A stretch of 6,045 nucleotides of DNA, taken from the NCBI GenBank assembly GCA_031260845.1, contig JAISKR010000099.1:1-6045 (forward strand). Reading direction: 5' to 3'. This stretch comes from Bacteroidales bacterium. Its GTDB lineage: Bacteria > Bacteroidota > Bacteroidia > Bacteroidales > UBA4181. This document shows, piece after piece, positions 3 through 5,700 of this stretch. Both the position numbers and the translations under genes were made by a program. The number at the start of each line of letters is the position of its first letter. Position 1 is the stretch's first letter. A model generated the notes under the pieces. It searched no databases. It saw only the letters and a list, made by a program, of their open reading frames with translations, and was not told the DNA's origin.

Positions 3-575
3 GAGTTGAAAGCCATGCACATCAAGGCTAAACCAAGCCGTAATACCCCTGTGCGCGTATATGCCAGTTCGCAAAAGAAAGACGACGACGAGGAATGGAT
101 ACTTGTACGCACCGGCATGACAGACGCCAACGGTCACTACGTCATCAAAGACCTGCCCAAAGGTCGCTACAAGATAGTACCCGATTTGCCCGGATACACT
201 TTGGATGCAGTGTTGATTGTGGAGGCGCAGGAAGACAAAAAGTACGTTGACCTCAACTTTACCATTGATACCGAAACCAAGACCATCACCAAAACGGTAG
301 AAGACGTACCCCCCATACCAACCGGCGTGGTAGAAACAGGGTATGCCCTGTCTGTACAGGTGTACCCCAACCCCTTTGCAGGAACCTTGCACCTGACAGG
401 CGCAGAAGGCAGCGTGTTGCAGGTAATTACGGTCAACGGCGCAGTAGTGCATACCCAAAAGGTAGTGAATCCTGATGAAACCATCAGTTTGGAGAAACTG
501 CCCGCAGGGCTGTATTTCTTCCGCTTGGAGAAAGCAGGGAAAGTGAAAACGGTGAAGGCGGTGAAACAGCCGTGA
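3..575 (+). CDS. C-terminal part of a secreted protein with a T9SS sorting domain (5' end outside window)
   Basis: The reading frame is open from the left edge (first full codon at 3), so this is the tail of a longer gene; the TTG at 6 is not a convincing start. About 190 residues are visible. Residues ~15-90 resemble a CnaB/SdrD-like or carboxypeptidase-regulatory-like beta domain (TPVRVYAS, then TDANGHYVIKDLPKGRYKIVPDLPGY). After a Thr/Pro-rich linker (~90-112) comes a type IX secretion C-terminal sorting domain of ~70 residues: VYPNPF near residue 120, VNGAVVHTQ, LPAGLYFFRLE and a basic end (KVKTVKAVKQP). In this family the domain directs export across the outer membrane by the Por/T9SS machinery and is usually removed, leaving the protein on the surface or released. 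The function of the missing N-terminal part cannot be told. The last codons (VKTVKAVK) have a 9-bp GTGAA periodicity that runs straight into the downstream repeat array, whose 33-bp repeat covers the stop codon. Confidence 0.9.
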   Translation, partial: ELKAMHIKAKPSRNTPVRVYASSQKKDDDEEWILVRTGMTDANGHYVIKDLPKGRYKIVPDLPGYTLDAVLIVEAQEDKKYVDLNFTIDTETKTITKTVEDVPPIPTGVVETGYALSVQVYPNPFAGTLHLTGAEGSVLQVITVNGAVVHTQKVVNPDETISLEKLPAGLYFFRLEKAGKVKTVKAVKQP

Positions 576-629
576 TACAATAGTGAAACAGTTGTAAAAC
601 AGCCGTGATACAATAGTGAGACAATGGTG
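564..629 (+). repeat. Two tandem copies of a 33-bp repeat spanning a stop codon
   Basis: Copies at 564-596 and 597-629 match at 29 of 33 positions; the first 23 bases are identical. The first copy begins inside the coding sequence of the secreted protein and includes its TGA stop (573-575). The 33-bp unit is itself three 11-bp sub-units, each carrying a GTGA- or GTAA-type word. Confidence 0.9.
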
Positions 630-647
630 ATACAATTGTCTCACTAT
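613..647. terminator. Perfect 13-bp inverted repeat, possible bidirectional terminator
   Basis: ATAGTGAGACAAT (613-625) and ATTGTCTCACTAT (635-647) are exact reverse complements around a 9-base loop (626-634). A second pairing, GTGAT (605-609) with ATCAC (650-654), extends the stem beyond a small internal loop. It lies between converging genes, where a two-way terminator would be expected. There is no U-tract on either side and the stem is only moderately GC-rich, so intrinsic termination is uncertain; the hairpin could instead stop RNA decay or act with Rho. The inverted repeat is certain; its function is inferred. Confidence 0.55.
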
Positions 648-648
648 G

Positions 649-729
649 AATCACAACGTATCACAATGAATCACAATCGAATCACAACGTATCACAATGA
701 ATCACTATCGAATCACTATGTATCACCAC
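649..729 (-). repeat. Tandem 31-bp repeat, about 2.6 copies
   Basis: Copies at 649-679 and 680-710 differ at one base (A675 versus T706). A partial third copy at 711-729 matches 15 of 19 positions and runs up to the menD stop codon. Each 31-bp unit is built of sub-units of 10, 10 and 11 bases: AATCACAACG, TATCACAATG and AATCACWATCG. Confidence 0.9.
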
Positions 730-2355
730 CTATAACAGGATTTTGCAATTTTTCTCCATCTCGGTCAAGACTTCTAATAGTATGGGTTTGTCGCTTGTGG
801 CGTCGGTCAGGATGGGTATTTGGTGCTGCAATTCTGCCTTGTTGCTTGCTTGCAGGTAGGTGAAACCTGCTGCTTCCGCCCATGCTTGCGCTGTGGCGCT
901 GTGCCGTGCCATTGTGTATTGTTCGGTGGGGCAGGCGTGGTCGAATTTCGGCAGGGTGCAGAATATTTCTCCGCCACCGTTGTTGTTGAGCAATATTCGC
1001 AAATTGCCGGTTATTTGTCGGTTCCACAAGCCGTTCATATCGTAGAAGAAGGCTAAATCGCCCGTCAGCAGGAAGGTGAGGCGGTCGCTTACCGCAGCAT
1101 ATCCGACGGCGGTGGACAGACAACCGTCGATGCCGCTTGTTCCGCGGTTGGAAAAAGTGTGTACGGTGGCTTTCAGCGGGAAAAGTTGCGCGAAACGCAC
1201 TGATGAACTGTTTGCCAGATGCAGCGAACAATCGTCAGGCAACGCCTGCATCAGCGCTTTCACAGCGGAAAGGTCGGAATATTCCGGCTGCGTAACGGGA
1301 ATGGCGTCTAATCGGCGCTTCCAAAGGGTGGGGAAGAGGGCGTCTTGGGCAACCGCGTCGGCGTCAGTGCGGACAAGCGCTTCCAGAAAACTCAATGCCT
1401 CGGTTTCAATCACGTTCGTCAGGTGGTGGTACAGGTCGGCGACGTCGCCCGTGGCGCTGACAAGCCAGTGTTCCTGCGGCGGATGCTTTTTGAAAAATTG
1501 TTTCACCCGTTTGGAAACGACGTGTCCTCCTACGCTTATCAGCAGGTCGGGCGCGTATTGCGTTTGCTCGTCATCGGTCAGAGCGCCCAAAAGCGCGTCA
1601 AAATTCCATGCAAACGACGGCGAATGCAGGTTGGAAGGATGTTCCGCCAGCACCACGCAATTGTATTTTTCCGCCAAAATTTCCAGCGTTTCTTTCAATC
1701 CGTTGTCCGGCGGCAGTTGCCCTGCGATAATCATTCGCTTGGCGAAGGTTGGGAAACGTTTGGCGCATGAGTTCGCCTCTGTGTGGCGGTTTATCTTGCG
1801 AACTGCCGGCAATGCCGCTTCCGAATATTCAAACAGAGGTTCAGACAAAGGCACGTTGATGTGAACCGGTCCCTTTCCGTGGTGGTCTTTTTCCAGCAGG
1901 GCTTCATTAATGAGTCGGTTGCAGTACCATTCATCATCGGGCGTTGTGATTTCGGGAAGTTGTACGAACTTCCGCACCAACGCCCCAAACAGACCGCGCT
2001 GCGGGATGACCTGATTGTCCATTTGTCCCAACAGGGCTTCGGGGCGGTCTGCCGTAATCACCACCAAGGGCAACTGTCTGTAAAAGGCTTCGGCAACAGC
2101 AGAGGCGTAATTGAGCACCGCCGTACCCGAAGTGCAGCAAATAGCCACTGTTTCGCGGGTGGAATCCATGACGCCGAGCGCATAGAAAGCGGCGCTTCGC
2201 TCGTCAATCACCGAATGGCAGATGAAAAAGGGATGCGCGGCGAAAGTATGGGCAAGCGGTGCATTCCGTGCGCCCGACGACAACACGATGTGCCTGACGC
2301 CGAACGCTTGCAGCAAAGCCGCTAATTGCAAAACATTTTTCTTGTTGGAATACAT
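730..2355 (-). CDS. menD: 2-succinyl-5-enolpyruvyl-6-hydroxy-3-cyclohexene-1-carboxylate synthase (MenD)
   Basis: Thiamine-diphosphate enzyme of menaquinone synthesis. It decarboxylates 2-oxoglutarate and adds the succinyl-semialdehyde unit to isochorismate, giving SEPHCHC, in the cytoplasm. The 541 residues are close to the usual ~550. Visible marks: N-terminal pyrimidine-binding domain with SSGARNAP (26-33) and the VIDERSAAFYALG stretch with the expected catalytic Glu52; TADRP (101-105); the MenD-typical NRGTSGIDG (403-411); and the cofactor-binding motif GDLAFFYDMNGL (432-443) ending in NNNGGG (457-462). The ATG at 2355 is preferred over an in-frame ATG at 2406: it starts the conserved N-terminus and overlaps the menF stop as TAATG, suggesting translational coupling. 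The 17 extra residues of the longer form lie wholly inside menF. menD is the last gene of its run; the stop codon at 730-732 abuts the repeat array. Confidence 0.95.
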   Translation of the reverse strand: MYSNKKNVLQLAALLQAFGVRHIVLSSGARNAPLAHTFAAHPFFICHSVIDERSAAFYALGVMDSTRETVAICCTSGTAVLNYASAVAEAFYRQLPLVVITADRPEALLGQMDNQVIPQRGLFGALVRKFVQLPEITTPDDEWYCNRLINEALLEKDHHGKGPVHINVPLSEPLFEYSEAALPAVRKINRHTEANSCAKRFPTFAKRMIIAGQLPPDNGLKETLEILAEKYNCVVLAEHPSNLHSPSFAWNFDALLGALTDDEQTQYAPDLLISVGGHVVSKRVKQFFKKHPPQEHWLVSATGDVADLYHHLTNVIETEALSFLEALVRTDADAVAQDALFPTLWKRRLDAIPVTQPEYSDLSAVKALMQALPDDCSLHLANSSSVRFAQLFPLKATVHTFSNRGTSGIDGCLSTAVGYAAVSDRLTFLLTGDLAFFYDMNGLWNRQITGNLRILLNNNGGGEIFCTLPKFDHACPTEQYTMARHSATAQAWAEAAGFTYLQASNKAELQHQIPILTDATSDKPILLEVLTEMEKNCKILL

Positions 2356-3398
2356 TATCGGATGAGTTTTAGCATGGTTTGTAACTTGTCTTCCGTTTCC
2401 TTCCATTCCTCGTTGAGGGTGGAAGAGGGCAGTAAACCGCCTCCGGCATACAGGCTAAGCGCCTGCTGCCCGATGTGCATACAGCGCAGATTGACGTACA
2501 AATCGGTGTTGCCCGCGGGATGTAACCTGCCCGTAAAGCCTGAATAATAGCGGCGGTCGTAGCCTTCTTCTTTCAGTGTGAACCGATAGGCGTCTTCTTT
2601 GGGCAAGCCGCATACGGCGGGCGTAGGATGCAGGCGTTTCAGCAGGTCGCCGAGATGGCTCACAGCAGGCAGCGAAAAATGGAAATCGCTCCGTAAATGA
2701 GCCAGTTCCCCCGCCCTGACCGCGTGAGGCGCTTCTTCCGAAAACGAAATGCCGTGGGCTGTCAGTTGCTGTTTGACATACATTGCCACTAAATGCTGCT
2801 CTTCCCTGTTTTTGTTGTCCCATGTGGCGGGCAGTTTGCCATTGAGCAAGGGCTGCGTTCCGGCAAGCGCCACGGTGTGCCACTGGTTGCCGCTTCCCGA
2901 CAGCAGGATTTCGGGCGTACTGCCCAACCACATTCCCGTGACAGGCGTGTGGCAGAGATATACATACGAGAACCTGTATCGCCAACAAGCCGTAAAAAAC
3001 GCCTGTTCGGGCGAAAAAGCAGGACTTCGTTCCACGCTTATCTGTCGCGAAAGCACTAATTTTTCCAAACGCTTTTCCTGCAAGGATTGTATGAAAACGG
3101 AAAAGCAGCGTTCGTATTCCGCCTTCGATTGCCGGTATTCGGGATGCCGGAACACCTCGCCTGCGGCAGATTCGGGCACGGGCAAAAGCGCTTCCCTGTC
3201 GGGGCGGATGATGACCAAAGGATGTTCATCGGTGATGTGGTAAGGCGCCATCACATATCCCTGCTGTCCGTTTAACCGGCTGACGTCTTGCAGTATCAAC
3301 GGCGACTGGTCGTTTTGCATCAGGATATGCGCCGTTCCTTCGCCGGGAATGCGGTAAGCAGCAAAAATGTCACCATGTCGGATAAGCGTATCAATCAT
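2355..3398 (-). CDS. menF: Isochorismate synthase (MenF-type chorismate-binding enzyme)
   Basis: Converts chorismate to isochorismate, the entry step of menaquinone synthesis, and hands product to MenD encoded next. The chorismate-binding fold is clear: KLVLSR (113-118), with Lys113 in the place of the general base of isochorismate synthases; STPEILL (160-166); ALAGT (177-181); NREEQHLV (197-204); RLHPTPAVCGLP (255-266); EGYDRRYYSGFTG (278-290); AGGGLLPSSTLNEEWKETEDK (318-338), which carries acidic residues of the kind that bind Mg2+ in the family. At 347 residues it is shorter than E. coli MenF (431), with a reduced N-terminal half. The ATG at 3398 overlaps the thioesterase stop as ATGA, and the TAA at its end overlaps the menD ATG. 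A siderophore (EntC/DhbC-like) role is possible from the family alone, but the menD neighbour makes menaquinone much more likely. Confidence 0.92.
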   Translation of the reverse strand: MIDTLIRHGDIFAAYRIPGEGTAHILMQNDQSPLILQDVSRLNGQQGYVMAPYHITDEHPLVIIRPDREALLPVPESAAGEVFRHPEYRQSKAEYERCFSVFIQSLQEKRLEKLVLSRQISVERSPAFSPEQAFFTACWRYRFSYVYLCHTPVTGMWLGSTPEILLSGSGNQWHTVALAGTQPLLNGKLPATWDNKNREEQHLVAMYVKQQLTAHGISFSEEAPHAVRAGELAHLRSDFHFSLPAVSHLGDLLKRLHPTPAVCGLPKEDAYRFTLKEEGYDRRYYSGFTGRLHPAGNTDLYVNLRCMHIGQQALSLYAGGGLLPSSTLNEEWKETEDKLQTMLKLIR

Positions 3399-4966: not shown

Positions 4967-5581
4967 TTAAAAAAGACCATGTATTTGGGCGTCAATCCGG
5001 TTGATGACGGAATTTAAGTCTTCCGGTGTTTCTTCAAACTGAATCTCGTCCACGTTTATTATCAGTATGTTGCCCGAAATATATTGGCTAATCCATTTTT
5101 CGTAGCGGTCGTTGAGTTTGCCGAGATAATCGAGCCGGATGCCGCTCTCGAAGGCTCTGCCCCGTTTTTGAATCTGCCTGACCAAGGTGGGTACCGAAGC
5201 GCGAAGATAAATCAACAGGTCGGGCGACTGGATGAACCCGGTCATCTTGTCGAACAGCGAACGGTAGGTTTTGTAGTCGCGCATACTCATCAATCCCATT
5301 GCATGAAGGTTGGCTGCAAAAATGTAGGCGTCCTCGTAAATGGTGCGGTCTTGCACCACGTCTAATCCCGACTCCCTGATTTTCTGAATCTGTCCGAAGC
5401 GTTCGTTCAGAAAATAAATTTGCAGGTTGAATGACCAATGCTGCATATCATCATAAAAATCATCCAAATACGGATTATTTTCCGCAGTTTCGTAATGTGC
5501 CTCCCATCCGTAATGTTTGGACAACAAGCCCGTTAACGTGGTTTTACCTGAGCCGATATTTCCGGCAATAGCGATGTGCAT
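4967..5581 (-). CDS. Deoxynucleoside kinase (dCK/dGK family)
   Basis: Cytoplasmic kinase of nucleotide salvage that phosphorylates a deoxynucleoside using a nucleoside triphosphate. The 204 residues fit the bacterial dAK/dGK/dCK family. Motifs in order: P-loop GNIGSGKTT (7-15); Glu31 in HYETAENNPYL, the region that holds the deoxyribose/base-contacting Glu; QDRTIYEDAYIF (77-88) with the Asp-Arg pair matching the DRS motif; LLIYLRAS (122-129); and the Arg-rich LID RQIQKRGRAFE (135-145). Preference among dA, dG, dC or dT cannot be read reliably from the sequence. The ATG at 5581 is followed at once by the P-loop strand, so the start is well placed. A Bacteroidetes-type promoter sits about 30 bases upstream (5611-5642), making this the probable first gene of a five-gene transcript running to menD. 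Confidence 0.92.
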   Translation of the reverse strand: MHIAIAGNIGSGKTTLTGLLSKHYGWEAHYETAENNPYLDDFYDDMQHWSFNLQIYFLNERFGQIQKIRESGLDVVQDRTIYEDAYIFAANLHAMGLMSMRDYKTYRSLFDKMTGFIQSPDLLIYLRASVPTLVRQIQKRGRAFESGIRLDYLGKLNDRYEKWISQYISGNILIINVDEIQFEETPEDLNSVINRIDAQIHGLF

Positions 5582-5610
5582 AACTCAAAATTTTTGATAA
5601 AAACGATTCC

Positions 5611-5642
5611 CAAAAGTAGTAATTTTTGAATTGACAGGCAAA
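5611..5642 (-). promoter_or_regulatory. Bacteroidetes-type promoter for the deoxynucleoside kinase-men run
   Basis: Read on the minus strand, TACTTTTG (5618-5611) matches the Bacteroidetes -7 consensus TAnnTTTG at every fixed position. TTTG at 5642-5639 lies 20 bases upstream, the right distance for the -33 box. Transcription would begin near 5604, leaving a leader of about 23 bases before the ATG at 5581. The -33 box is made from the last bases of the upstream rpmE2 terminator's T-tract. Confidence 0.7.
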
Positions 5643-5677
5643 AAAAAATCGGGTTTCACAAAAAATATGAAGCCCGA
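5640..5677 (-). terminator. Intrinsic terminator of rpmE2
   Basis: On the minus strand, TCGGGCTTCA (5677-5668) and TGAAACCCGA (5658-5649) form a 10-bp stem with a 9-base loop and one central C-A mismatch, followed directly by nine T residues (5648-5640). It begins about 23 bases after the rpmE2 stop codon. The GC-rich base of the stem and the T-run are the standard layout of a Rho-independent terminator. Confidence 0.87.
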
Positions 5678-5700
5678 CCTTGTATTTTCAAAGGACATTA

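Follow-up and report, generated by a model that had tools for sequence, protein, structure and literature searches.

The STRR heptamer repeats of cyanobacteria are short intergenic tandem words dispersed in the genome, and REP/BIME elements are dispersed intergenic inverted repeats that occur with RAYT transposases. The TAACTGA heptamer forms intergenic direct repeats in Beggiatoaceae, some Cyanobacteria, and five Bacteroidetes (MacGregor 2015, PMC4679880). In the BOGUAY genome, these repeats lie mostly just upstream of start codons, and for two Gramella arrays the relatives have shorter gaps with no obvious repeats (PMC4679880). Slippage is proposed there as the source of heptamer repeats, and long simple sequence repeats (LSSR) are described as having units of 1-11 nt (Mrazek et al. 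2007, as cited in PMC4679880). The origin and spread of the TAACTGA repeats are given as unknown (PMC4679880).

The stretch of DNA analyzed here, 6,045 nucleotides in length and referred to as the window, carries two facing arrays of a repeat with the core GTGATWC. The TAACTGA arrays are the nearest described counterpart found, being of the same kind but with another word, unit length, and placement. Both consist of many intergenic tandem arrays of one word that are patchy across relatives; however, the TAACTGA unit is 7 bp without a spacer and lies mostly just upstream of starts in the BOGUAY genome, whereas the GTGATWC unit is 10 or 11 bp, degenerate, and tends to begin at stop codons. The LSSR are likewise short tandem repeats of similar unit size scattered among species, but by the cited definition they repeat one unit for longer than expected by chance, while the GTGATWC arrays are degenerate in core and spacer and mix two unit lengths. 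STRR and GTGATWC arrays are both intergenic dispersed tandem words that differ in unit length and word. The arrays show the traits of the short-tandem-repeat families (STRR, LSSR, TAACTGA): head-to-tail order, intergenic position, and patchiness among relatives. REP/BIME elements share with them the dispersed intergenic inverted repeats, but neither array-bearing genome yielded a Y1 transposase and 62 of the 72 loci are one-sided. No description of the GTGATWC repeat came up in a literature search, though one may exist in print.

The window comes from a draft assembly of 1.80 Mb that is 59% complete (G000), and the array site lies on a contig of 6,045 bases. Its features are as follows.

3..575, plus strand: 3' portion of a gene whose secreted product carries a type IX sorting tail (open reading frame; Por_Secre_tail PF18962, 38.1 bits against a cut-off of 27)
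561..637, plus strand: left array, seven units at an exact 11-bp step (sequence, repeat-family detection, array calling)
573-575, plus strand: TGA stop of the type IX gene, which falls in the second unit of the left array
613..647: the turn, a near-palindrome with the junction GTGATACAATTGTCTCAC at 627-644 (inverted repeat, 16-nt arms, 94% complementary)
638..726, minus strand: right array, nine units at 10/11-bp steps (repeat detection, array calling)
730..732, minus strand: TAG stop of menD; the right array lies 3 bp away
730..2355, minus strand: menD-like gene for a thiamine-pyrophosphate enzyme (PF02776, PF16582; open reading frame 730..2406)

A preliminary description of this DNA had reported GTGAWA-type words at an exact 11-bp step from 561 to 627 and WATCAC-type words at 10-11-bp steps from 639 to 721, facing each other around position 630, and all three statements stand. 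The seven left words start at 561, 572, 583, 594, 605, 616, and 627, with GTGAWA in five of them (the exceptions are GTAAAA at 594 and GTGAGA at 616); the units are GTGATAC, GTGAAAC, GTGAGAC, or GTAAAAC plus 4-nt spacers. The nine right words start at 639, 649, 659, 669, 680, 690, 700, 711, and 721, in steps of 10, 10, 10, 11, 10, 10, 11, and 10. WATCAC is present in eight of them, the first being TCTCAC, and on the minus strand they read as eight GTGATWC and one GTGAGAC, beginning 3 bp past the menD stop. The arrays meet at 627/638, itself an 11-bp step (GTGATAC-AATT-GTCTCAC). The description also had the array filling a convergent gap; the genes are indeed convergent, but the left array starts inside the type IX gene and the intergenic gap is 576-729. 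Its remark that there is more order than a simple terminator needs is borne out, as the array is real and positions 400-900 contain no intrinsic-terminator-like site (G+C-rich stem followed by a T run). Folding of both strand transcripts, which it had proposed, revealed that none of 200 shuffles folds as well on either strand (z -6.4 and -7.8). Pairing of the two arms in register was rejected, because the arm words, read from the sequence, match poorly beyond the 613-647 core. Comparison of the window with Rfam gave no match above the gathering score and five weak matches to microRNA models (21.8-30.5 bits, cut-offs 50-100).

The outer left units of the window prolong a run of VK-repeat codons in the type IX gene, and the same tail occurs at locus L125. 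At both places (543-575 in the window, approximately 740-780 in L125) the type IX tails end in VK-repeat codons (KTVKAVKQP), whose GTGAAA words merge smoothly into the array words. Seeding of arrays at type IX sorting tails was rejected, since most genes with stops near arrays end otherwise.

The window site is one member of a family. BLAST with positions 540-735 returned at least 68 rows (overlapping rows from both strands, with 40 of the 74 candidates scored) on at least 37 contigs of its own genome, where a triple-word pattern with 10-12-bp steps had 76 overlapping matches vs none for the reversed pattern. Array calling in 244 kb of G000, consisting of contigs chosen for carrying arrays with the window included, and in 402 kb of a congener (G002), 647 kb together, yielded 73 arrays, whereas the reversed sequence gave none; for G002, 20 of 100 contigs were chosen for arrays. 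In 880 kb of G002 there are 32 arrays, and the whole set comprises 74 arrays at 72 loci, 41 in G000 (the 244 kb of array-chosen contigs) and 31 in G002 (the 880 kb).

The 453 units of these arrays are mostly 11 bp (274) or 10 bp (165) in length, with eight of 9 bp and six of 12 bp. Each unit consists of the core GTGATWC, of which GTTATAC and GTGAGAC are the main variants, and a spacer, RRTD in the 11-bp form or RTD in the 10-bp form. The T of the spacer is constant in ∼98% of units and C is almost missing at the last position; the core letters are partly set by the array-finding pattern, the spacer letters are not. The longest arrays have 14 units. Slippage had been among the origins first suggested, and the arrays fit it: of 380 adjacent pairs, 12% consist of identical units vs 2% of random pairs, and higher periods of 21, 22, and 31 bp are present, which together point to local slippage. 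Unit order across loci is near that of shuffled arrays (39 shared two-unit runs vs 29, three three-unit runs vs 1.3), and a single four-unit run is shared between loci vs none in 100 shuffles. From these sequence comparisons, spread by copying between loci is weakly supported.

Genes were called with a custom dicodon script rather than a standard caller, and by these calls one of the 41 G000 loci and none of the 31 G002 loci is centred within a gene. A special tie to convergent gaps, where the preliminary description proposed to search above all, was not supported. Arrays occur in codirectional, divergent, and convergent gaps, at 12/135, 6/58, and 4/34, respectively, in G002; the convergent excess seen on the array-chosen contigs of G000 (8/11, compared with 13/49 codirectional and 3/18 divergent) is absent in G002, and a convergent-gap element was therefore rejected. 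Arrays as markers of synteny breaks were also rejected, with no difference between array gaps and array-free gaps in G000 (6 broken and 1 colinear vs 8 and 3) or in the G002 direction (2 and 0 vs 13 and 4).

The placement of arrays follows the stop codon on their 5' side, as read along the GTGATWC strand. Where a stop lies on that side, 23 of 34 arrays begin across it or no more than 20 bp away; for a stop on the 3' side the figure is 5 of 33 (Fisher 1.7e-5). When the comparison is limited to gaps whose two ends are known, the 5' count is 19/27 compared with 5.5 +/- 1.9 for uniform placement, a value that none of 5,000 simulations reaches, and the 3' count is 3/27 compared with 6.5 +/- 1.8. 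The excess of in-sense starts at stops over uniform placement indicates that placement is not random. The stop is inside the array in ten of the 23 stop-anchored cases. Start codons on the 5' side show no comparable proximity (3/30 within 20 bp vs 23/34 for stops); on this ground, and by their word (GTGATWC+RRTD/RTD), the arrays were rejected as TAACTGA repeats proper.

Both orientations are present at ten of the 72 loci, all of which read >< with a single turn each; seven of the turns are at 11 bp, one at 10 bp, and two at 13 bp. The window is one of the ten, with each arm beginning at the stop of its own gene, and the ten are not all in convergent gaps. The junction GTGATACAATTGTCTCAC of the window is also present at L105, L150, and, on the other strand, L088, which makes four loci in two species, and L137 carries it with two extra bases.

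The distribution among relatives is narrow. Searching the host and related genomes, a step proposed at the outset, gave many loci in the own genome and in G002, but none in the seven other congeners; with 40 relatives searched, G002 is the only match (2 of 41 genomes including its own). In sampled stretches of the seven congeners (189 kb), eight rows of short-period repeats were found, none with a GTGATWC word. Four of 393 genomes of the order match the pattern, with 72, 260, 2, and 1 hits, so that many hits are found only in G000 and G002; the reversed pattern has two hits in genome G100 and one in G155.

Conservation of the array between relatives, which the preliminary description held out as a test, was not found at the menD end. 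The G002 menD protein is 85% identical to that of the window, and the nucleotide alignment covers 748-2500 at 86.7% (blastn), stopping at 748, inside the last menD codons. The orthologous menD 3' end in G002 has no array and a different neighbor gene. The last menD codons of the window (730-748), beside the array, diverge from the congener as if the arrival of the array had replaced the gene end.

Other sites were compared in the same manner. When the 41 G000 loci were set against the 880 kb of G002, flanks matched for 20 and failed to match for 21, and ten of the 20 were counted: nine alignments of 826-902 bp at 84-91% and L088:3331, with flank matches of 100 and 139 bp. Eight of the ten orthologous sites, including that of the window, are without an array in G002; for L089, the G002 contig extends just ∼160 bases past the match. 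L094 is mixed, as its left-flank orthologue is without an array and its right-flank orthologue has one. At L088:3331 and its counterpart L135:4106, both genomes have an array with different unit letters. The ten excluded rows comprise seven short matches (36-96 bp, repeats) and three weak alignments, namely L087 (288 bp, 74%) and L125 (191 bp, 77%), each with an array within 600 bases, and L128 (353 bp, 67%), with no array. From G002 to G000, 10 of 31 loci have a flank match, one of them long and clear (L148:7245, 888 bp, 84%), with no array at the corresponding place in the window; L112 pairs with L094. L090/L102 is the sole array-free site with both flanks aligned (88-91%), where a gap of ∼150 bp in G000 corresponds to ∼30-40 bp in G002, and L102, inspected by eye, has no clean insertion ends. 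Two orthologous gene ends carry other repeats: in L383 (approximately 5430-5700, G002:C31), the orthologue of an array-bearing G000 gene end has a tandem repeat of the CACGAGCCGATGTCACGCA type soon past the same stop, and in L107 (approximately 2970-3060) the orthologous end bears AATTATG-like heptamers.

The absence of arrays from eight of ten orthologous sites argues against a conserved function. The best reading of these sequence comparisons is that the GTGATWC arrays form a young, changing short-tandem-repeat family anchored at gene ends. For the window, we tentatively favor, with a little less than even confidence, an account in which two arrays of a many-locus 10/11-bp repeat start at or across convergent stops, lie tail to tail at an 11-bp junction, probably grew by slippage at gene 3' ends, and would each act as a one-way Rho-type terminator. 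Growth likely proceeds by replication slippage, and short blocks may occasionally be copied from one locus to another. Slippage alone leaves the vocabulary common to separate loci unexplained.

A further explanation, doubtful but a substantial possibility, is that the arrays are neutral, functionless short tandem repeats, which nucleate just past stops where DNA is least constrained and survive when in sense. The unit itself may account for such survival, as every unit contains TGA and its length is not a multiple of three, and growth into a gene end would still stop translation immediately. Other repeat families also crowd at stops. The contigs of G000 and G002 contain many intergenic 7-bp (AATTACG, AATTGAC, GTTTCGA) and 8-bp (CGTTTATC, AAAGGATA) arrays. 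For the 7-bp arrays, 18 of 37 stop-facing ends are within 15 bp, compared with 7.6 for uniform placement, vs 5 of 31 start-facing ends compared with 3.4; the 8-bp arrays are perhaps crowded at stops as well (3/7 vs 1.2). Stop codons are more often richer on the sense strand at gene-end arrays in other families (29 vs 9) and in the GTGATWC family (28 vs 13). Stop crowding together with this richness identifies gene ends as the usual settling place of short tandem repeats in this lineage, and the fast turnover at orthologous sites also agrees with neutrality. The preliminary description took an absence from relatives or a lack of conserved phase, with RNA ends outside the array, as signs of neutral sequence; the first two were found, but the in-sense starts at stop codons exceed uniform placement. 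Untranslated arrays past the stop are sense-biased too, with 13/34 sense starts 1-20 bp past the stop vs 4/33 antisense, although in a looser count the sense bias of the GTGATWC family is not significant alone (p 0.17 after the stop, 0.12 across it). Moreover, neutral growth predicts neither a common vocabulary at many loci nor the constant >< polarity.

The favored account, that of slippage-grown arrays which act as one-way terminators, relies on a strong strand asymmetry: the GTGATWC strand is C-poor and its complement C-rich. A published rule for Rho utilization (rut) sites calls for a 78-nt window with C/G above 1 and a C every 11-13 nt (PMC6407284). Like rut sites as characterized in that source, the arrays have a C-rich, G-poor strand with regularly spaced C; unlike them, they are tandem repeats at 10-11 nt, and any action of Rho on them is predicted. 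In the 37 of 74 arrays with at least six units, the complement strand passes the rule in 65% of cases and has C/G above 2 in 65%, while the GTGATWC strand passes in 0%. Array-free gaps pass in 16% (C/G above 2 in 3%, n=432) and stretches inside genes in 27% (3%, n=1484). A Rho RNA-binding domain is encoded in G000 and G002, and in eight of nine genomes of the genus overall. Two regions of the window are predicted to load Rho.

631..732, plus strand: predicted Rho loading region, C-rich and G-poor, in the transcript past the type IX gene (78-nt windows with C/G 2.4-3.0)
544..657, minus strand: predicted Rho loading region in the transcript past menD (78-nt windows with C/G 1.15-2.0, spaced-C rule satisfied)

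On the plus transcript, the windows with C/G above 2 (from 631 on) fail the 11-13-nt spacing of C, and those from 589 and 595, with C/G 1.07-1.15, satisfy it. The C/G asymmetry, the passes under the rut rule, and the Rho domain lead to the sequence-based prediction that the site is likely a two-way Rho-type terminator built of two arrays. The right array would present a C-rich, G-poor stretch in the type IX transcript and the left array a C-rich stretch in the menD transcript. Rho loaded on either would keep transcription from extending far into the opposite gene, and each array would serve as a one-way terminator against transcripts from its far side.

Whether such termination would be selected is a separate matter. 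Array strand relative to codirectional neighbors is 13 same and 11 opposite, and stops (33) and starts (28) are about equally frequent on the 3' side of arrays. As array strand is not biased by which neighbor would be stopped, a by-product is as likely as an adaptation, and rapid turnover makes termination at most a local by-product of each site, not an ancient element. It is rather unlikely, in our estimation, that the lineage writes one-way terminators, with GTGATWC+RRTD growing from stop codons so that a rut array on the opposite strand would shield the gene end from convergent or antisense transcription, and with other genomes of the order using the same 11-bp grammar and another core (G100: GATGTTC/GTGCAAC+RRTA).

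Protein binding on one face of the DNA is improbable. OmpR/PhoB-type regulators read direct-repeat boxes of 7 bp with 4-bp spacers, and the 7+4 layout and mean step of 10.6 bp of the arrays resemble such boxes by analogy. One-face phasing, which the preliminary description had emphasized, is not a maintained property: phase drift in 65 arrays is 0.349, compared with 0.310 +/- 0.032 when the steps are shuffled, so that step order provides no compensation, and 14 of the 65 drift by more than 90 degrees. The core also varies within arrays (GTTATAC, GTGAGAC, GTGAAAC), and gene ends are preferred over gene starts, neither of which suits a regulator.

No more probable is an origin from a dispersed mobile hairpin of REP/BIME or MITE type that decayed, copy by copy, into arrays. 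The identical, imperfect junction GTGATACAATTGTCTCAC at four loci of two species (the window, L088 on the other strand, L105, and L150) and the strong folding of the window site would be accounted for by such an origin. A Y1 transposase (RAYT/IS200 type) is present in four of nine genus genomes and a reverse transcriptase (RVT_1) in three of nine, but neither was found in G000 (59% complete) or G002 (93%), and an origin through either enzyme, including a diversity-generating retroelement or other repeats made by reverse transcription, was rejected on that basis. In addition, the 62 one-sided loci have a single orientation, unit order is hardly common between loci, and L102 lacks clean insertion ends by eye. 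The weakest proposal, and a very improbable one, is that the arrays act as fail-safe stop signals by placing stop codons in tandem, in each of the three frames, past the natural stop: the sense bias of stop codons in gene-end repeat families and the excess of TGA and TAG among stops at array starts (TGA 10, TAG 8, TAA 5 at the 23 anchored starts, hence 18/23 compared with 332/820 overall, where TAA is 488, TGA 223, and TAG 109) favor it, but 30 arrays have a start codon on their 5' side, and many are thus not past a sense stop, and two or three units would suffice where arrays reach 14.

The GTGATWC family is one short intergenic repeat family with a measurable placement rule, namely in sense and from the stop codon, together with a fixed polarity where two arrays meet and a degenerate unit grammar. 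Together with a sister species in which eight of ten compared orthologous sites are empty, these traits allow one to ask how such repeats arise and whether they terminate transcription. If the rut reading is true, repeat turnover would be linked to the wiring of transcript ends.

Arrays elsewhere in the order provide a wider view. Among 24 selected GTGATWC array loci in other Bacteroidales, none is in a called gene, and of the seven that have a stop on the 5' side, two begin no more than 20 bp from it. As far as tested, stop anchoring is thus particular to this lineage. Arrays were also found with GATGTWC, a scrambled control core, in one of the 393 order genomes (G100), and 28 Bacteroidales loci hold 7-11-bp arrays of many other words. 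Conservation of the GTGATWC core across the order was rejected on these grounds, and the wider GTGATWC matches are partly pattern-picked. G100 has an 11-bp family of its own (G100:C19, approximately 9260-9770, and G100:C17; L451 and L450) with the cores GATGTTC, GGTGTTC, and GTGCAAC and spacers of the RRTA type (GATA, GGTA, AATA, AGTA). Arrays of 11 bp with genome-specific cores may, judging from G100, be a wider habit of the order. Repeats of GTGATACTCAAG at L161, L193, and L203, in Bacteroides, Bacteroidales, and Prevotella metagenome-assembled genomes, have a step of 12 bp, which suggests coding repeats outside the GTGATWC family. At L159, L170, L180, L182, L189, and L214 (RUG11067, RUG13776, and a Paludibacteraceae metagenome-assembled genome), GTGATTC arrays with an 11-bp step lie in an element whose flanks are similar, roughly TGCTGTCATCTATTA before and GGTTAGTAAGC after, sometimes followed by GAATCAC or GTATCAC, and this resembles a dispersed element with an elastic middle.
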